Below, one piece after another: positions 10,850-20,313 of a stretch of 36,286 bases of DNA (within the stretch, counting starts at the first letter, position 1; the number at the start of each line of letters is the position of its first letter). The stretch is from a virus. Under the pieces are notes generated by a model. The model saw only the letters and a program-made list of their open reading frames with translations, had not been told where the DNA came from and ran no database searches. The position numbers were made by a program, and so were the translations under genes. The stretch spans positions 1 to 36,286 of the IMG/VR virus record IMGVR_UViG_3300030430_004864; one strand, given 5' to 3'.

Positions 10850-11314
10850 ATGATTAAACCTAGTTTAGAAACAATAGACGATCAAAAAAGAGAAGAGCGG
10901 GTGGCAGGTTACTTAGAGGGTAAATGGGATGTAACTTGTCACAAGCTTCCAGTATCTTACGGTTTAGATTACTGGATAGAATCAAAAGAAAAAAGTTTTT
11001 GGTGTGAAGTAAAATGTCGTACCTTTGCTTACGATAAATATGATACTTTCATTTTATCAGCTGCAAAATTAGCGAAAGGAAGTGCATTTGCTAATGCTAC
11101 AGGTGTGCCTTTTATTATTGTTTATGCTATGACAGATGGATTGTATATGCATAAATGGCAAAAGAATCATAATTATGAAGTCATGATGAATTTATCACAA
11201 GATCCACAACACGTTGATGACAATGAGCCTTACATTCACATACCGAAAAATATGATAGAATGTATTAACGATTTACCATTAGGTATGGATAGGAACGAAA
11301 TAGGACTATGTTAG
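10850..11314 (+). CDS. PD-(D/E)XK nuclease, resolvase-like (154 aa)
   Basis: The N-terminal half carries the core YGLDYWIESKEKSFWCEVKC, with Asp40, Glu53 and Lys55 as the metal-binding D...ExK set, preceded by a helix with Glu15/Glu16. This is the layout of small archaeal-type Holliday-junction resolvases and VRR-like nucleases. It follows the primase by 9 bases with an AAGGAG site, so it probably cuts branched replication or recombination intermediates before packaging. Its stop overlaps the holin start. Confidence 0.7.
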   Translation: MIKPSLETIDDQKREERVAGYLEGKWDVTCHKLPVSYGLDYWIESKEKSFWCEVKCRTFAYDKYDTFILSAAKLAKGSAFANATGVPFIIVYAMTDGLYMHKWQKNHNYEVMMNLSQDPQHVDDNEPYIHIPKNMIECINDLPLGMDRNEIGLC

Positions 11315-11781
11315 ATATATTAAAAAATACTTTAGCGACTGTAGCACCAACATTAGGGCAAGCAGTAGGTGGGCCTTTAGGCGGAGCTGCTGCAAATATG
11401 ATTGCTAGTGTGCTTGGTTGTAAAGCAGAGCCAAAATCTATTGCACAGGCTATGCAAAACGCTACACCTGAACAGTTACTAGAACTTAAAAAAGCAGAAA
11501 AAGAGTTCGAAGTAAAAATGAAAGAGTTAGATGTAGATATTTATAAATTACAAACACAAGATATACAAAATGCACGAAGTGCTTTTTCGGGCGATTGGAC
11601 CTCTAAAATATTAGGGTTTATAACATTAGGTGGTTTTATGGGTTATATATTTTTAGTAACAATACAACCGCCAGAACAAAATAGTGAGGCTCTTATTAAC
11701 CTTGTGTTAGGTTACTTAGGTGGTTTGGCTAGTGCAGTCATATCCTTTTACTTTGGAGCATCACACAAAAAGGACGAGTAG
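11308..11781 (+). CDS. Holin, GTA-type 3TM family (157 aa)
   Basis: An N-terminal Gly/Ala-rich hydrophobic helix (about residues 8-36) is followed by a charged coiled helix (LLELKKAEKEFEVKMKELDV, then QDIQNARSAFSGDW) and two C-terminal membrane helices (ILGFITLGGFMGYIFLV; LGYLGGLASAVISFYFGA). The ARS-x(4)-DWTSKI and C-terminal FYFGASHKK are typical of the three-TM holins known from gene transfer agents and marine phages. The protein would open the inner membrane late in infection. Its stop codon lies inside the 5' arm of the hairpin at 11776-11852. Confidence 0.75.
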   Translation: MLDILKNTLATVAPTLGQAVGGPLGGAAANMIASVLGCKAEPKSIAQAMQNATPEQLLELKKAEKEFEVKMKELDVDIYKLQTQDIQNARSAFSGDWTSKILGFITLGGFMGYIFLVTIQPPEQNSEALINLVLGYLGGLASAVISFYFGASHKKDE

Positions 11782-11852
11782 TCTGTTGACTAGCGTAAAG
11801 CTCAAGGGTTTTTCAGAAAGTTGCGCCCTGGGAACATCAGACTACTCTTTTT
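11776..11852 (+). ncRNA. Large hairpin with T-run between two holin-like genes
   Basis: GAGTAGTCTG (11776-11785) pairs perfectly with CAGACTACTC (11838-11847), followed by TTTTT (11848-11852). The 52-base loop has an inner AGGG/CCCT helix (11805-11808 with 11826-11829). The 5' arm contains the holin stop codon, and the next gene's ATG is three bases after the T-run with no Shine-Dalgarno. It could be an intrinsic terminator with a structured head or a switch controlling translation of the second membrane protein. Confidence 0.6.
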
Positions 11853-11854
11853 AA

Positions 11855-12205
11855 ATGCAAGATATTGTCACTATAATCCAACAAGTAGGTTTTCCGATAG
11901 CAGCAGCTCTCGGACTAGGTTGGTTTATTTACAAGCTAATCATGCGTATTGTTGACGGTATGGAAAATAAATTAGATGTCGTTGACGAAAAGGTAGCTGA
12001 ACAAATAACCGCCATGGAACAAAGATTAGGTACAAAACTTGATTCACAACATGGTATCTTAGTAGCTTTGATTGACAGGATTAGAAGCCTTGACAACGAG
12101 ATCATTAGACAGGACACTTTAATTAAGACCATATTAGGTGTGCCACAATTAATTGATAGCAATAAGATAGCTAAGGCAGATAGAGATGACCAAAGAAAAG
12201 ACTAA
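11855..12205 (+). CDS. Holin-like membrane/coiled-coil protein (116 aa)
   Basis: An N-terminal membrane helix (VGFPIAAALGLGWFIYKLIM, about residues 10-30) is followed by a long coiled coil (residues about 38-85, DVVDEKVAEQITAMEQRL and so on). This shape is seen in BhlA/UviB-like small holins and other phage lysis accessory proteins. The start at 11855 is the only one that keeps the membrane helix, although it has no ribosome binding site and lies just behind the hairpin. It overlaps the csgF-like gene by 20 bases. Confidence 0.6.
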   Translation: MQDIVTIIQQVGFPIAAALGLGWFIYKLIMRIVDGMENKLDVVDEKVAEQITAMEQRLGTKLDSQHGILVALIDRIRSLDNEIIRQDTLIKTILGVPQLIDSNKIAKADRDDQRKD

Positions 12206-12686
12206 TTATAAAATGAGTGATTATTATAAGGATAAATACAAGAGGATGGGTTGTGCTGTTTACTTAATCCCGATCTTGGCACTTCCTGTCCTCGCCGATG
12301 AAATTAAATTTCAATTCAAATCACCATCATTTAGTGGTATAGGCACAAGCCAACACTATCTGACAATAGACGAGCAAGAATATACAAGACGAGAGGCATT
12401 AGAGGCAGAGATCAAGGCTATGCAAGATGAACTTGAGCGTGATGCACAAAATACAACGTTAGCCAGGTTCTTACGAAACTTTGAATCTAGAGTTTATGCC
12501 CAACTATCTAGACAGCTGGTGGATCAACTCTTTGGTGAAAATCCTGCTGAACAAGGTAGTTTTACTTTATTCGACAATCTTATAACTTGGACTACGGACG
12601 GCATAACTATTACAATGTCTATATTTAATGAAACAACTGGCGAAACAACTACTATTACTATTCCTATTGGGGACTTTGGCTTCTAG
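12186..12686 (+). CDS. csgF: CsgF-like curli assembly protein
   Basis: A signal peptide ending LALPVLA (cleavage after about residue 37) is followed by DEIKFQFKSPSFSG, the clear counterpart of the CsgF N-terminal segment (FQF-x-NP-x-FGG) that plugs into the CsgG channel. The C-terminal half ends with a strand pair (TDGITITMSIFNETTGETTT) matching the CsgF C-terminal domain. In curli systems CsgF forms a second constriction on the CsgG pore and anchors nucleation at the surface. The start at 12186 gives an unusually long charged n-region; ATG 12246 would give a short standard signal peptide and may be the real start. The last 59 bases also encode the start of CsgG. Confidence 0.85.
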   Translation: MTKEKTNYKMSDYYKDKYKRMGCAVYLIPILALPVLADEIKFQFKSPSFSGIGTSQHYLTIDEQEYTRREALEAEIKAMQDELERDAQNTTLARFLRNFESRVYAQLSRQLVDQLFGENPAEQGSFTLFDNLITWTTDGITITMSIFNETTGETTTITIPIGDFGF

Positions 12687-13473
12687 TTGTACTACACACC
12701 TATCTTACATATCACCATGCTTAACTAATCCTGATAACGATTATAAAGATGTTGTTACTATTGTTGGTAAGGCAGAGTGTTTCTCCAAAGCAGCTTTTAT
12801 TAATGAACCTGTAACTGATGCAATAAAAAATTTACCAAAACCAGCACAAAGACCAGTGGTAGCCGTATATCAGTTTCCTGATGCTACAGGACAAAGAAAA
12901 TCTATTGACGGCTTTGCAAGTTTTAGTTCGGCCCTAACTCAAGCTCCAGAAGCTTACGTTATCAGAGCTTTGAAACAATCTAAATTTTTCAGGGTAGTAG
13001 AACGGGTAGGTATAGATCACGTGACTCGTGAAAGGCAGATTATTAGGTCTACCAGAGAAAAGTTTGATGAAGAGACACAACAGATGCCTTTGTTGTTTGC
13101 AGGACTAATTATTGAAGGTGCTTTGATAGATTACAATACTAATCTTCTAACCGGTGGTGTAGGTGCTAGATATTTAGGTATTGGTAACTCAAAACAATAT
13201 CGTGAAGATACTGTTATTGTTTCTATGCGGGTTGTATCGGTGTCGACTGGTGAAATATTATTAGAAAATTTAACAACAAAAACTATTTTATCTGTTGGTT
13301 TATCTAATGATTTTTTTCGGTATATTGCTGATGGTACGAAGCTAGTTGAGTTTGAAACCGGTAATGCTATGAATGAAAGTAAGTCTATAGCTTTACAAGC
13401 AGCAATAGAAACTGGTATTGTAGATATTGTGGCTCAAGGTATTGATAAGGGCTACTGGGAATATATGAAATGA
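12628..13473 (+). CDS. csgG: CsgG-like outer-membrane secretion lipoprotein
   Basis: This 281-residue protein has a lipoprotein signal (LLLLFLLGTLASSC, lipid on Cys21) and the CsgG body: VVAVYQFPDATGQ (77-89), ALKQSKFFRVVERVG, TGGVGARYLGIG (175-186), VVSVSTGEI, TKTILSVG and AAIETGIVDIV near the end. CsgG forms a nonameric barrel that exports unfolded curlin across the outer membrane. By eye the constriction loop aligns with Phe kept but the Asn and Tyr replaced (SIDGFASFS). Compared with E. coli it ends a little earlier and has about 20 extra residues, including Cys31 and Cys51, after the lipid anchor. It overlaps csgF by 59 bases and the curlin gene by 4. Confidence 0.92.
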   Translation: MKQLAKQLLLLFLLGTLASSCTTHLSYISPCLTNPDNDYKDVVTIVGKAECFSKAAFINEPVTDAIKNLPKPAQRPVVAVYQFPDATGQRKSIDGFASFSSALTQAPEAYVIRALKQSKFFRVVERVGIDHVTRERQIIRSTREKFDEETQQMPLLFAGLIIEGALIDYNTNLLTGGVGARYLGIGNSKQYREDTVIVSMRVVSVSTGEILLENLTTKTILSVGLSNDFFRYIADGTKLVEFETGNAMNESKSIALQAAIETGIVDIVAQGIDKGYWEYMK

Positions 13474-14192
13474 CTATGCGTATAATTTTTTTACTTTTAT
13501 CTTTTGGTTTATTGGCAGACGATGAGATATTCGTTGAGCAAACTGGTTCGAATGCTACTATCAAATTAGAACAGCTTGGTAGTAATAACATAATTGGTGG
13601 CACAAGTGCTGTTTCCGGCACTATGACTGCTTTAGACTTGGATGGTACAGATATGACTCTCACTATTAATCAAATAGGAAGTAGCAATATATTTAGATCA
13701 GATGGCATAAATTCAGATAACGTTACAGGTTATTTTGATTTTCAAGGAGATTCTAACGTGCTTGATATCTTGTTGAACAGTAATGGTGCATATTCAGCAG
13801 ATTACGCCAATCTAAATGTACAGGTCTCAGGTGGAAGCAATATTTTCGATATTGAAATAGGTGAAGCATCCAACGCCGATTATTTAGACTTAGATTGGAT
13901 TATAGATGGAGATAACAACGATTTTGAATTTGATATTGACTACGAAAATGCTACTAACTATGTAGATGTTTTTGGAGATGGCAATGAACTTACTTTCGTA
14001 GGAAGTGGTTATGCCGGCACAAGTGCCAGCGATAGTGGTTATTTTTATTTAGATTTAGATGGTAGTTCAAACACTTTTACTATTACACAATCATCAACCC
14101 TAGCTAGAGACTGGCTCAAGATTACAACAAATGGATCTAATTCGATATTTTGTGTGGTACAAAGTGACGGTGGGACTTCTACTACATGCTAG
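13470..14192 (+). CDS. Secreted curlin-repeat protein (240 aa)
   Basis: A short signal peptide (IIFLLLSFGLLA) is followed by an acidic Asn/Ser/Gly/Asp-rich protein with nine G-x-x-N or GSN turns at residues 26, 37, 70, 93, 121, 147, 169, 198 and 222, mostly 22-33 residues apart, close to the curlin repeat length. The first repeats keep the curlin Gln pattern (EQTGSNATIKLEQLGSNN; INQIGSSN). It ends CVVQSDGGTSTTC, with the only two Cys of the mature chain near the C terminus. It is probably the substrate of the CsgG/CsgF pore and may assemble as amyloid-like fibre. ATG 13470 overlaps the csgG stop; ATG 13476 is an alternative. Confidence 0.78.
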   Translation: MTMRIIFLLLSFGLLADDEIFVEQTGSNATIKLEQLGSNNIIGGTSAVSGTMTALDLDGTDMTLTINQIGSSNIFRSDGINSDNVTGYFDFQGDSNVLDILLNSNGAYSADYANLNVQVSGGSNIFDIEIGEASNADYLDLDWIIDGDNNDFEFDIDYENATNYVDVFGDGNELTFVGSGYAGTSASDSGYFYLDLDGSSNTFTITQSSTLARDWLKITTNGSNSIFCVVQSDGGTSTTC

Positions 14193-15216
14193 TAGTATAG
14201 GGGACATTACTGAACTTAGAGGTTACGGGCAAATAATTAGAGATGAGCCTTTTCCTGCGGTTCTAAATTTTAATATTAATTCTTATGATGACGTGCAGAC
14301 TAGAGCTGGACGTATCGGTATTACTTTTTTAGATAACTCTACCGTCAAACTAACAGAACATTCTTCACTAATAATTGATGAATACATATATGATGCTAAT
14401 CCAAGTAATAGCAAAATGGCTCTTCAGTTTGCTAGTGGCACTATCCGTTTCATTTCAGGCAATCTAAATAAAAGTAACATAACCCTGAAAACACCAACCG
14501 CTGATATTGCAGTTAGAGGTACCGATTTTACTTGCACTGTAGATGAAACAGGCAAATCTTTGATAATACTTTTACCAAATGAGTTTGGCGATCCTAGTGG
14601 AGAAATAGTGGTATCTACAGCTATGGGCCAAGTAATTCTTAACAAACCGTATCAAGCTACTACCACTAGAGTTTATGAAAAAAGTCCGAGCAAACCAGTA
14701 ACATTAGATATAGATTTACAGTTTATAGATAACATGTTAATTATTAGTCCACCTAAAGAGGAAAGTTTACCTGGCGAAGAGGCAACTAATAAAACCCAAG
14801 ATTACTTAGATTTTACTGATTTAGACGTAGATTTTTTGGAAGAAGACCTGTTGGAAGAAGACGCTGATTTTGAGTTTACTGAGTTAGATATAGATTATTT
14901 GAACGTAAATTTTTTAGAAGATCTTTTAGACATTTTAGATTTATTAGAAGAGGAGCAAGAAACAGAATTATTGGGTTCAGTGGCAGGGGTTGACATACAA
15001 GGCACACAAATCGGCCAGGATCTTGAAACTAACATTACAACGATTATTGATGGCAGCACAATCAGACTAATACGCAAGGTCACACAAAATGCAGAATTTA
15101 GTTTGAACTCTGATCAAGCTTATACCGTAACTTTCACGCAAGATGGGGTAACAAGAACCGTTAAAATAAATGGTGGCAACGAATCCAATATAACAGTAAT
15201 ACAAAACTCAGGATGA
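14131..15216 (+). CDS. Periplasmic FecR-domain protein (361 aa)
   Basis: After a weak N-terminal signal (VTVGLLLHASS) comes a FecR domain of about 150 residues, ending with the diagnostic TPTADIAVRGTDF (121-133). Then follows a beta-rich stretch and an acidic region (about 220-285) with two diverged copies of an F-T-D/E-L-D-x-D-F/Y-L motif, and a final beta domain with VTFTQDGVTRTVKING. FecR domains act in the periplasm as sensors or surface-associated adaptors and are often encoded next to CHASE2-cyclase genes, as here. The first 62 bases overlap the curlin gene in another frame; the ATGA at the end couples it to the cyclase. Confidence 0.8.
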   Translation: MDLIRYFVWYKVTVGLLLHASSIGDITELRGYGQIIRDEPFPAVLNFNINSYDDVQTRAGRIGITFLDNSTVKLTEHSSLIIDEYIYDANPSNSKMALQFASGTIRFISGNLNKSNITLKTPTADIAVRGTDFTCTVDETGKSLIILLPNEFGDPSGEIVVSTAMGQVILNKPYQATTTRVYEKSPSKPVTLDIDLQFIDNMLIISPPKEESLPGEEATNKTQDYLDFTDLDVDFLEEDLLEEDADFEFTELDIDYLNVNFLEDLLDILDLLEEEQETELLGSVAGVDIQGTQIGQDLETNITTIIDGSTIRLIRKVTQNAEFSLNSDQAYTVTFTQDGVTRTVKINGGNESNITVIQNSG

Positions 15217-16970
15217 GATTTAAAATATTCACAGTTTTATTAGGGTTATTAACGATACCTTTAGCCACTCAGTCGGTTCCTAGCGAAATATTAAAGCTTA
15301 AAGTTTTTGATGCTTTTGTTGAGAAACATAAACCAAGCGAATACTTTACTATAATTAATATTGATGAATCTACTATTCAAGCTGAGGGTGGTTGGCCTTT
15401 ACCAAGATCTAGAATAGCTGAGATAACAGAAGAAATATTTGCAAATGGTGCAATAGGGGTAGGTTGGGTGTTATCATTTGTAGATAAAGATAGGTTTGAG
15501 AATGGTGGTGATGACTACCTCTTAGAAAAGTTAATATCATATCCCTCAGTTGTTGCCACTTTCTCTTACGACAATCAGGAATATCCAAAGCCAGAAGGCA
15601 CAGTAATCTTAGGCGAAGATGCTCCAGGTATTTTATTAGAAGGTCATTTACCAAATATACCTGGTATGTCTGAGGCAAGCTTAGAGGGTATTGTCTCTGC
15701 ACCTGTTGACGTTGATAACTTAGTAAGACGGCTACCTCTGATGTATCGAATACCTGACGGCTGGGTACCAAGCTTTGGCACACAAGTATATAAATTACTA
15801 ACAGGATCTGATACGTATGTCATCAAAACCAACGAATACGGTTTAGAAGAAATAAGAGTAAAAGGTATACCACCTGTCAAGGTAGACAGCTTAGGTCGAA
15901 AGTGGATCAGTTGGGTTGATACACCTGAAACAACTTTGTCTGAAATGCAAGTTGCTAATAAATTTGTATTTGTTGGGGTAACTGGTAAAGGCATAATGCC
16001 GAAAGTTGCAACAAGCTCAGGTGAATTATTAGAGCCTCACAAAATTCAAGCTGCTTTAGCTGAGTCAATCCTGATTCCAAACTCACCATATATACCAGAT
16101 TGGCATTTACCTGTGGAGTTGTTAATTTTAGGATTTTTTTGTCTTCTTATTTGGGTTCTAACGCAATCTTTTGCAGTTACAGGTGGTTTGATAAGCTTTT
16201 TTACAATATTTTTGTCTACTGGCTTTGTAGGGCTTCAAATGATAGGTAGAGGCATTTTGATAGATTTTTCCTATACTTTGGTGTCAGAATTTATTGTTGG
16301 AGCTGTTTCTTTCTATTTGAACTTCGCACAACAGTATAAATTAAGACAACAAATCAAAAAACAATTTGAACATTATTTAGACCCAAAACAAGTCAAACGT
16401 TTGCAAGACAATCCTGAGTTGTTGAAGTTGGGTGGTGAAAAAAGATATTGCACATTTTTATTTACAGATGTGCGTGGTTTTACTGCTTTATCAGAAAAAC
16501 TGGATCCGCAACAAGTTACTGAGATTATGAACAAGGCCTTGACCATTCAAGCTAATGCTGTCCAAAACAACGGGGGTATGGTCGATAAATATATTGGTGA
16601 TGCTATGATGGCTATATTCAACGCACCTTTAGATCAAGATAATCATGAAGACGCAGCTATACAAACAGCGCTTCAAATACGACACGACATAAAAGCAGCA
16701 GAGTTAGGTATTGAAATTGGTATAGGGATAAATTCAGGGCCAGCTGTTGTAGGTAATATGGGGTCAGATTCACGTTTCGATTATACAGCAATCGGTTCTG
16801 ATGTGAATTTAGCTGCAAGGTGTGAGTCTAGTTGCAAAGCCGTAGGACAAGATCTAGTAATAGCAAAAAATACGGCAAAAGCATCTAGCTATAAACTAAA
16901 AAAATTAAAACCTGTTGAAATGAAAGGTATTGCTGAACCGGTAGAAATATATACTAAGGACTTACTATAG
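15213..16970 (+). CDS. CHASE2-sensor class III adenylate cyclase (585 aa)
   Basis: Order of parts: N-terminal signal-anchor helix, a periplasmic CHASE2 domain (about 25-295, with INIDE, then WPLPRSRIAEI), three membrane helices (about 300-317, 320-340, 352-370), a short linker helix, and a class III cyclase domain (about 408-585). Catalytic residues are all present: metal Asp419 (FTDVRGF) and Asp463 (YIGD), purine-selecting Lys459 and Asp523 (FDYTAIG), and transition-state Asn532 and Arg536 (VNLAARCE). The Lys/Asp pair predicts ATP, so the product is cAMP. CHASE2 would respond to a periplasmic cue, plausibly the FecR protein encoded just upstream. Its stop lies inside the end of the opposing virion gene. 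Confidence 0.93.
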   Translation: MRFKIFTVLLGLLTIPLATQSVPSEILKLKVFDAFVEKHKPSEYFTIINIDESTIQAEGGWPLPRSRIAEITEEIFANGAIGVGWVLSFVDKDRFENGGDDYLLEKLISYPSVVATFSYDNQEYPKPEGTVILGEDAPGILLEGHLPNIPGMSEASLEGIVSAPVDVDNLVRRLPLMYRIPDGWVPSFGTQVYKLLTGSDTYVIKTNEYGLEEIRVKGIPPVKVDSLGRKWISWVDTPETTLSEMQVANKFVFVGVTGKGIMPKVATSSGELLEPHKIQAALAESILIPNSPYIPDWHLPVELLILGFFCLLIWVLTQSFAVTGGLISFFTIFLSTGFVGLQMIGRGILIDFSYTLVSEFIVGAVSFYLNFAQQYKLRQQIKKQFEHYLDPKQVKRLQDNPELLKLGGEKRYCTFLFTDVRGFTALSEKLDPQQVTEIMNKALTIQANAVQNNGGMVDKYIGDAMMAIFNAPLDQDNHEDAAIQTALQIRHDIKAAELGIEIGIGINSGPAVVGNMGSDSRFDYTAIGSDVNLAARCESSCKAVGQDLVIAKNTAKASSYKLKKLKPVEMKGIAEPVEIYTKDLL

Positions 16971-19900
16971 GGCCAAAACCTAAATCTCGTTCTCTTTGTA
17001 TGGTATCTGAGACACCTGGTGAAACGTTTGTATAAGAACTTAAATCAGGTAGAGGCATATTAACATTAGGTACCGAAGCTCGACCTGTCGCAATTAGATC
17101 TTGTACTTCATCCCTTTCTAAAACATCAGCGGTTGCTTCTGTTATTTGTTCTTCTGCATCCTCGATTCCACTAGCAACGCCTCTAACCCCTAATTGTTTT
17201 AAAGTTCTATCGAAATAATCGAAAACTAATCTGATTGAAGTTTTATCAGTTTGTGCTAAACCTCTGACAACTCTAGGATTTGAAAGCAAACCACGCATAA
17301 ATATCGTTCCTATAATAAGAGGCAACGTATTAATATTAAAAAAACTAATAGCAAGGGTAGCAGCCACTAAACCACCCGCTGCTGCACCTCTGCCAGACTC
17401 ACCTTTTGTTAAAACATCTAATGTGTTAGCCAGATATCGTAGACTTTGCCTTGTTTCGGCACCAAACATAGCGTCTAAAGTTTCATTACCATAAGAATCT
17501 AAGGCGTTAGCTAAAGCTTGAGGTTTGAATATATCTGTAATTTCACCTTTGCTACCAGGCTTAACAGCTGTTCTTATTAATTTATCCATAGCTGCATTTT
17601 GAATCTCTAAAAAATCTTCTTCTCTGAGCAAACTTTTTACTCTGGCAATGTCAGGAGCAGCCTTTGGTGTGAATAGCCGTCCAGCTACTTCTTCGGCAGT
17701 TGCCTCTTCTAATCTTTGCGTTATAAAAGTTTGTCTTTCGAAAGCCTCACGTGCTGCTTGAGCTTCTGCTTTTGTTTTTAAATTTAGTAGTACTTTAGAA
17801 CCGCTGTTCAAACTTCTTAAGCCATCTCTAGTTATGTTCATGCCTTTCAAAAGATCAAAAACCTCGTCGGATTTTATTTTTGGATTTAATTTAATCAGTT
17901 CACCTGATAATGCACGAATTTTTGCAGCTTCTTCAGTTCCAAATAGTAAATCGTATTTAGCACGACCCCTACCTCGCTCAAAGTCTGCTATATATTTACC
18001 AAAATCGTTGAATCTTATGTTGCCTGTAACTGGATCAATAGATTCTTCTAAACCTTCTTGAAAAAACTTTTGTTTCATAATTGATTTAATTCTGTCTCCT
18101 ACAAGAGTATTATCATTTGCTTGTCCAATTCTTGCTAAATAACCATCATATTCTCTAAGGTTTGCGAAAATATCACGTAAGTCCGCATAATCTCCATCCT
18201 TAAAAGCGGTTTGATATATTTCATCTGCGTCTGCGCCACCTCTTCTTGCACCCTTAGCTATTCTTTTTATATTCAATCTGTCGAAAGCTTCGGATTTTTT
18301 TGCATAATTTGAGTTAGTTCTTTTTAACTCTTCTACGATATTTATTAATTCATCTCTTTCTGAACCTGATAGTTTTGCCATCGGTTCCATATAATCAAGT
18401 TCGTCTGTAAAATTTCCTGCACTATCCTTTTTCATTACAGATCTCCCGGCGTTGTTCACCGCTGTAATTTTCCTTAAATCTGTAGCGTCATCGAGAAAAC
18501 CACCTGATCTACCTATACCGAAAATCGGATCATCTTTTATTTGTATTAACTCGCCATCTTTATAAATAACATCATCAAAACCTAATTGATTATTCATTTT
18601 TTCATAAATTCTATTAATTTGTCCCTTTGTCAAAGGATTGTACTTGTATTGTTTAAGGTCTTTAGTCAACTCAAATATACCGTCAGGCCCACCTAGCTTC
18701 AATTGGGTTGGGTCATCGACCATTTTTTGTAATTCGGCGGTAACCTTTTTAAAAGAATTTAAAGCGTTTGATGGTAAGTCGCCCTTATTGTCTAGACCAT
18801 CGGCAAGTTTTGATTCATAGTCTTTTATTTCTGCTCTAATAGCTTTCACTCTAGGTCGCAACATTTCAGCTAAAGTAGTTCGCAAAGCATCAGAGTTGCT
18901 TTCTTCCATAAGTTTTATAATTGCTTTATCTATATCTCTATACTTAGGCCCATAAGTGTTATCAATAGCTCTGCGAGCACGATCCAAAGCACTTATTAGT
19001 TGAATACCAAATTCTCTAGATCCTAATGCTTCAGCAGATTGCGTTGTTCCTACTATATCATCAACAACGGTTTTCAAAGCATCATCTAAGGTTTTGTTGC
19101 TTTGGTTAACAGCTAAATCTAATTCATTTTTTTTGTTTTTAATAGTTTGCTCGATTGATCTTTTTGCCCTTGGACTGATACCGGCTTGTAGTTTGTCTTT
19201 GAAATAGCTGCTTGATACAGCTGCCTCATTATTCAGGTCGCCTACCAATTTACTTATTTGTGCGTTTAAGTTATCTATATTTCCTCTAGTTCTTTTGTTA
19301 CCCAAAATAGACTCCAAAATTTGTTGCAACCTGCCTGGTAAAGATCTTTCCAAACCTGCTTGACTTATTACGTAAGGTCCAGGCAACATACGGACTGCCC
19401 CTATCTGATAACCGCCTTTATCATAATCGTATTTTTTTACAGCGTCTGCTAATTCTTTTTTGGTTGCGGCTCTGCCTAATGATTCGTCAAGTTTTTGTAT
19501 GTCGATAAGATCACGTCCGAAAGTAGCTTGCTCTGCTAATCTGCTACTAGCGACAGGGGCTCCTTTACCTAAAGTGTTAGCAAATACTATTCCTATACCC
19601 TCACCTATACCTTGGCCAATACCACCTAGTAACGCTTCACGTGTGAGTTCTCCACCTACCTCACCAAGACTTTGTTTTTGATACCCTTGCAGATAATCTA
19701 CGGCCTCTTCTACACCTTTACCACCAGCGGATCCTATAGCAGCGGTTGTCACATTTGCTGCTCTTGTGCCGAATTTACCCCCTAAAAAACCAAAAAGTTT
19801 TTTTGCTGCACCAAAAAGCTTAAAGGGTGGTGCCATAGCCACTAATGAACCAATTACAGGACCGGTAATACCAGAAAAATCTGCTAGGGTTGCACCCAAG

Positions 19901-20313
19901 CCTTCAAACCGTCTTGCATCTATTATCGTATTAATAGGTATACGCTCTCCGTTTGGTAAGGTTCTGAACTTGACGGGTAAGCCTAATCTTCTTAGACCCT
20001 CATGCGTTAAAGCCATTTCGCCTTTACTATTGTAGGTATAACCTCTTGAGCCTAACAAAGTGGTAGCGACATTTTCTCTCTCTTCTAAAGTTTCTGCTTG
20101 TGCTAGTTCAGATCTTATACCTTTGATATTAGGCACACCTTCGTCGTAATCAAACAAGTAATCATCTAAATATGCAGCAGTCTCAGCATTTTTATTGTTA
20201 AAAAAATTAACTTGCTCAATATCTCTTCTAATTAAGGCTTTAGCCTCTTCAGGACTAGAGGCTTCTTTGATTACTTGTTTGCCATCAGATAGTGTAACTC
20301 TGTATTGTGGCAT
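16954..20313 (-). CDS. Large internal virion / ejection-like protein (1119 aa)
   Basis: The last gene of the late virion operon. The N-terminal region is charged (MPQYRVTLSDGKQVIKEASS) and is followed by a Gly/Ala-rich hydrophobic region (about 150-265) with possible amphipathic or membrane-active helices, then a long helical body rich in Lys, Glu and Leu (about 340-960). A Gly/Ala hydrophobic segment with INTLPLIIGTIFM lies near the C terminus. Podovirus ejection proteins that enter the cell envelope with the DNA have this size and composition. No peptidase or transglycosylase motif is obvious. The gene meets the cyclase gene tail to tail, overlapping by 17 bases. Confidence 0.6.
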   Translation of the reverse strand: MPQYRVTLSDGKQVIKEASSPEEAKALIRRDIEQVNFFNNKNAETAAYLDDYLFDYDEGVPNIKGIRSELAQAETLEERENVATTLLGSRGYTYNSKGEMALTHEGLRRLGLPVKFRTLPNGERIPINTIIDARRFEGLGATLADFSGITGPVIGSLVAMAPPFKLFGAAKKLFGFLGGKFGTRAANVTTAAIGSAGGKGVEEAVDYLQGYQKQSLGEVGGELTREALLGGIGQGIGEGIGIVFANTLGKGAPVASSRLAEQATFGRDLIDIQKLDESLGRAATKKELADAVKKYDYDKGGYQIGAVRMLPGPYVISQAGLERSLPGRLQQILESILGNKRTRGNIDNLNAQISKLVGDLNNEAAVSSSYFKDKLQAGISPRAKRSIEQTIKNKKNELDLAVNQSNKTLDDALKTVVDDIVGTTQSAEALGSREFGIQLISALDRARRAIDNTYGPKYRDIDKAIIKLMEESNSDALRTTLAEMLRPRVKAIRAEIKDYESKLADGLDNKGDLPSNALNSFKKVTAELQKMVDDPTQLKLGGPDGIFELTKDLKQYKYNPLTKGQINRIYEKMNNQLGFDDVIYKDGELIQIKDDPIFGIGRSGGFLDDATDLRKITAVNNAGRSVMKKDSAGNFTDELDYMEPMAKLSGSERDELINIVEELKRTNSNYAKKSEAFDRLNIKRIAKGARRGGADADEIYQTAFKDGDYADLRDIFANLREYDGYLARIGQANDNTLVGDRIKSIMKQKFFQEGLEESIDPVTGNIRFNDFGKYIADFERGRGRAKYDLLFGTEEAAKIRALSGELIKLNPKIKSDEVFDLLKGMNITRDGLRSLNSGSKVLLNLKTKAEAQAAREAFERQTFITQRLEEATAEEVAGRLFTPKAAPDIARVKSLLREEDFLEIQNAAMDKLIRTAVKPGSKGEITDIFKPQALANALDSYGNETLDAMFGAETRQSLRYLANTLDVLTKGESGRGAAAGGLVAATLAISFFNINTLPLIIGTIFMRGLLSNPRVVRGLAQTDKTSIRLVFDYFDRTLKQLGVRGVASGIEDAEEQITEATADVLERDEVQDLIATGRASVPNVNMPLPDLSSYTNVSPGVSDTIQRERDLGFGPIVSP

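Follow-up and report, generated by a model that had tools for sequence, protein, structure and literature searches.

The adenylate cyclase gene analysed here is most likely the signalling end of a curli (type VIII secretion, T8SS) module carried by the phage itself, whose gene content predicts the secretion of a fibre. The window, that is, the whole stretch of DNA under analysis, is a viral record of 36,286 bases, and the open reading frame of the cyclase (15213-16970, plus strand, 585 aa) was borne out in it. The earlier note had treated this gene as a stand-alone phage cyclase, overlooking the CsgF, CsgG and curlin genes of the module to which it belongs. Marine-phage modules of this type are already known (published in 2020-2022), so that the window represents one more such module, on another backbone, characterized by a Prim-Pol primase and a virion protein with 34-39% identity to those of HTVC027P, CRP-901/902 and DSL-LC04.

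The genes of the cassette lie on one strand with overlapping ends in the order x116, CsgF, CsgG, curlin-repeat protein, FecR-domain protein and, as the last one, the cyclase. CsgF, the curli assembly factor, is encoded at 12186-12686 (+; PF10614, E 3e-16), and CsgG, the outer-membrane curli secretion pore bearing a lipoprotein signal, at 12628-13473 (+; PF03783, E 1.2e-46). The next gene (13470-14192, +) encodes a CsgA/B-like secreted protein of 240 aa, which was recognized by its QxGxxN repeats, a conserved alignment and the presence of PF07012 in its relatives (12 of 15 members, best E 8.6e-6; the window copy falls below the cut-off). What defines a phage T8SS/curli module, namely co-directional CsgF, CsgG and curlin-repeat genes along with FecR and the adenylate cyclase (AC), is present in the window.

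The linkage of the cyclase to these genes was scored in two sets of loci. A search for the cyclase itself yielded 80 viral loci, 65 of them with enough flank to score FecR, and FecR lies directly upstream of the cyclase in 63 of the 65. Where the flank sufficed for the entire module (36 loci), x116, CsgF, CsgG, curlin and FecR were all found upstream, without exception. To avoid circularity, a second search was seeded on CsgG instead of the cyclase; in the scorable viral loci obtained this way, the cyclase stands at the end of the module in 48/48 and FecR is present in 61/61. These loci are near relatives picked by similarity to the window, so the 48/48 describes this clade and may not extend to every phage curli module; PMC9599517 reports modules in which the AC is missing. 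The data suggest that the modules of this clade carry the cyclase and FecR as constant components, not as optional additions. Median dN/dS values are 0.083 for CsgG and 0.092 for FecR vs. 0.12 for AC. The phage-type module was also seen, complete or in part, in six contigs from bacterial metagenome-assembled genomes (L082-L086 and L098) labelled as Neomarinimicrobiota, Flavobacteriaceae, Saprospirales and Rickettsiales, two of which (L085 and L086) bear only the cyclase and x116; these are probably misbinned phage contigs.

Curli modules were reported earlier for pelagimyophages (PMC7029224), for the OM43 phage Melnitz (PMC9004378) and for HTVC023P-type podophages, where they include FecR and adenylate cyclase (PMC9599517). 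The pelagiphage module (PMC9599517; also PMC7029224) comprises a small 'HK', CsgF, CsgG, CsgA/B, FecR and adenylate cyclase in the same order as in the window, and CsgE, CsgC and CsgD were found in neither. In contrast to it, the window encodes curlin only once, FecR and AC being direct neighbours, has the Prim-Pol primase backbone, and bears a gene without a kinase domain (x116) in the 'HK' position. The Pelagibacter myophage HTVC008M and the OM43 myophage Melnitz likewise possess CsgF, CsgG, curlin, FecR and AC ordered as in the window, but have one more curlin gene, placed between FecR and AC; their cyclases are 34% and 29.5% identical to that of the window, respectively. The HTVC008M enzyme looks intact, whereas in the Melnitz AC (L166, 7977-10028) Ser replaces the transition-state Asn and Asp occupies purine position 525, so that, judging by its residues, this cyclase may be impaired.

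The first gene of the cassette, x116 (11855-12205, +), encodes a module-specific protein of 116 aa that combines a single membrane helix with a coiled coil and was found in 36/36 scorable loci; its only matches among 50,697 phage records are in two curli phages, HTVC008M and Melnitz. From its position, size and frequent duplication, x116 is probably the gene labelled 'histidine kinase' upstream of csgF in PMC9599517. A histidine kinase (HisKA/HATPase) was rejected as its identity: no kinase domain was detected in the 17 members inspected. In one related locus (L004, 4629-4976), the x116 protein is 100% identical to that at 11855-12202 of the window, while AC and FecR there are 67-68% identical; either strong constraint or local recombination may account for this. 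Upstream lies x157 (11308-11781, +), a candidate holin-like membrane protein (weak GTA_holin_3TM match, E 0.015, below the cut-off), which is a neighbour of the module and not part of its core. Between x157 and x116, a stem-loop with a U-run was found at 11774-11850 (+; MFE -25.4 kcal/mol, z -2.3), where the stem GAGUAGUCUG/CAGACUACUC runs into the U-run; a comparison of the loci L001-L003 shows paired changes (in L002/L003) together with a loop that is conserved (TTGACTAG..CTCA..GGAACA). No Rfam family matches it, which speaks against a riboswitch or another known RNA ahead of the module, and it is a candidate terminator, attenuator or structured leader RNA. Promoter and terminator scans gave no excess over shuffled sequences. 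On the opposite strand, following the cyclase (16954-20313, -), a protein of 1119 aa is encoded that has no Pfam, PHROG or tblastn match in the 50,697 phage records; by its position, it is probably a large virion/ejection-type protein.

The cyclase contains a CHASE2 domain, as had been claimed (PF05226, residues 13-312, E 2.4e-26), and a Guanylate_cyc domain (residues 412-580, E 1e-19). A confident AlphaFold2 model (pLDDT 90.7), built on 35 aligned homologues, refines this layout: a transmembrane helix at residues 2-18, CHASE2 at about 22-297, helices at 298-319, 322-345 and 353 to about 375, and the class III catalytic domain at 409-581. There are thus four membrane helices, one N-terminal and three C-terminal, and not three as counted previously. 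An N-terminal helix, a CHASE2 domain predicted to be extracytoplasmic and three C-terminal helices preceding the output domain place the protein in the CHASE2 receptor family. Foldseek matched the cyclase domain of the model to the structures of CyaC, CyaB and Cya2. Spirulina CyaC and Pseudomonas CyaB share with it the class III fold and the Lys/Thr purine pair; their regulatory domains, unlike that of the window cyclase, are other than CHASE2.

The catalytic residues were assigned by alignment to 1wc0/1wc1 and 3r5g. The letters named in the earlier note for positions 419, 459, 463, 523, 532 and 536 are all correct; the role given to Asp523 is not. In the alignment to the solved CyaC (1wc0/1wc1, '..RSDFTAIGPSVNIAAR..'), Thr525 takes the purine-selecting position, and residue 523 varies (D/E/A) in bacterial homologues. 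All residues expected of a class III (IIIb) enzyme were found, i.e., D419 and D463 for metal binding, the purine pair K459/T525, and N532 and R536 for the transition state. D419, K459, D463, N532 and R536 are unchanged in 81/81 phage homologues, where position 525 is occupied by T (43/81) or S (38/81). Because the purine partner of Lys459 is Thr525, the cyclase is of the Lys/Thr, class IIIb-like type. In class IIIb adenylate cyclases, such a pair denotes a preference for ATP rather than GTP. The gene is under strong purifying selection (median dN/dS 0.12 over its whole length and 0.097 for the cyclase domain). Taken together, the residues, the fold and the selection make it very probable that the enzyme is active as an adenylate cyclase, and the claim of a catalytically intact enzyme is supported as a prediction.

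Immediately upstream of the cyclase gene, with a 4-nt overlap, lies the gene for the FecR-domain protein (14131-15216, +; PF04773, E 1.9e-12), which has a signal-like N-terminal segment. Both its position and its proposed role as a partner agree with our data: besides adjoining the cyclase in nearly all viral loci scored, FecR adjoins it in 8 of the 9 bacterial CHASE2 cyclase loci that bear a FecR domain (Pfam-confirmed; median of about 9 genes per bacterial locus). FecR is very probably a functional partner of the cyclase. In bacteria, the two neighbours occur in same-strand, divergent and convergent orientations, which speaks for a functional pairing that predates the phage module, even if CHASE2 cyclases with adjoining FecR are a minority in bacteria (about 6 of 33 scorable loci). 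The bacterial cyclases with adjoining FecR (e.g., L109 from Gammaproteobacteria and L118 from Arenicellales) combine CHASE2 and Guanylate_cyc as in the window; they are 736-770 aa long and about 26-30% identical to the window cyclase, and no curli genes were detected beside them. Among the module genes, FecR shows the highest distance correlation with AC (Spearman 0.67). This cannot be taken as specific coevolution of the two, given that the neighbouring x157 scores as high (0.68 vs. 0.67). A role as an iron/sigma regulator of the FecIR type was rejected: a FecR domain behind the signal-like N-terminus was all that could be recognized in the protein, an anti-sigma domain was not found, and no sigma factor was seen among the ORFs scanned. 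Its low-confidence model (pLDDT 60) resembles only the PupR/BDI_1681 surface-signalling domain (Foldseek).

Building on the observed gene set and linkage, catalytic residues, fold, purifying selection and FecR adjacency in bacteria, we consider it probable that the cyclase works as a sensor within the phage curli module, where FecR or the envelope/fibre state would act through CHASE2 and cAMP on a non-CRP target. During infection, the phage would build the CsgG outer-membrane pore with CsgF and export the curlin-repeat protein, and the FecR-domain protein would be placed in the periplasm or on the surface. In the predicted membrane orientation, the periplasmic CHASE2 would detect its presumed ligand, the FecR protein, or the envelope/fibre state that FecR reports. 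The signal would then cross via the three C-terminal membrane helices and switch the putatively homodimeric class IIIb (Lys459/Thr525) cyclase domain, which, in the presumed direction of the response, would turn cytoplasmic ATP into cAMP. The Melnitz homologue without the transition-state Asn counts against this sensor reading, as does its missing output step: neither SAR11 nor the phages show a cAMP receptor.

The nature of the output was approached through SAR11, the host of the cultured relative HTVC008M; SAR11 may not be the host of the window. SAR11 genomes were spotted with a 16S probe sequence, and their order was then searched. The cAMP-binding domain PF00027 was found in only 4 of the 58 SAR11-order genomes (G409, G429, G439 and G445), each time as a weak cNMP-binding domain inside a single 870-aa frame unlike CRP. 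This frame may encode a transporter equipped with a cAMP-binding domain; no other candidate for binding cAMP is visible in the order. Neither class III cyclases nor CsgG were detected in the same 58 genomes (0/58 each). A phage-encoded receptor was rejected as well, with PF00027 in 0/47 phage records, among them the complete genomes of HTVC008M and Melnitz, and the text of PMC9599517 makes no mention of CRP or a receptor. The earlier note had proposed that phage cAMP rewires host metabolism through a CRP-type receptor. In SAR11, such an effect is unlikely because PF00027 is so rare there and absent from the phages, yet HTVC008M, infecting hosts without a class III cyclase of their own, keeps the gene; moreover, the strict linkage to curli genes would be left unexplained. 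The apparently intact catalytic site and the frequency of PF00027 in Alphaproteobacteria generally (32/41 sampled genomes of the class) speak for the proposal, as does the uncertainty about the host, the fibre N-terminus of the window resembling that of the Roseobacter phage CRP-902 (53% over 150 aa). The window proteins show weak affinities to HTVC023P-type pelagiphages as well as to the Roseobacter phages CRP-901/902, and the GC content (36.6%, near the 34.6/34.9% of HTVC008M/HTVC027P) is only suggestive as to the host. All this makes the CRP route improbable in our estimation. The outcome named beforehand as speaking against it, a host without any cAMP-responsive protein, is close to what was found for SAR11, although the window's host may differ.

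A role in lysis is a serious rival because a lysozyme or holin-like gene lies near the cyclase in many loci (lysozyme or x157 at most 3 kb downstream of AC in 35/48, and from -7.5 to +3 kb in 14/14). The module, cyclase included, would then time or aid lysis, the pore and the envelope sensor acting together with holin and lysozyme. The weak YvrJ similarity of x116 and the lysis role of CsgGF proposed for Melnitz (PMC9004378) fit this idea. Still, the adjacency may reflect nothing but shared late expression, the holin call for x157 is a sub-threshold match, the window lysozyme is about 16 kb away, and neither curlin nor FecR is accounted for, so that we find this explanation unlikely, too. It is also conceivable, but in our view highly improbable, that the cAMP output itself matters without a CRP-type receptor, by draining ATP or by signalling to some other nucleotide-binding host or defence protein. 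That the active site is strongly constrained in phages infecting SAR11, where no classic receptor was seen, would agree with this, but a membrane sensor domain is superfluous for a simple ATP drain, and no candidate target is known.

Returning to the sensor reading, the target of cAMP in SAR11 is unlikely to be a CRP-type regulator. Only tentatively, and with considerable doubt, we suggest that this widespread module of strictly linked phage genes makes cAMP in SAR11 cells, which lack both a CRP-type receptor and a native class III cyclase, and that the effect of this messenger, new to the host, whether through a non-CRP target or through ATP/cAMP chemistry itself, is tied to the state of an outer-membrane fibre or pore built by the phage.

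Few entities in the ocean are as abundant as SAR11 and its phages. Phage curli modules are reported from all 65 GOV2.0 stations (PMC9599517). For this family, our analysis sets the FecR protein apart from iron regulation and questions the 'histidine kinase' label of the gene in the x116 position. It also presents a paradox, in that a conserved, predicted cAMP-making sensor is maintained in phages of hosts (SAR11) that lack the usual cAMP receptor. If the proposed scheme is true, the phage would bring into its SAR11 host a second messenger that is new to it.
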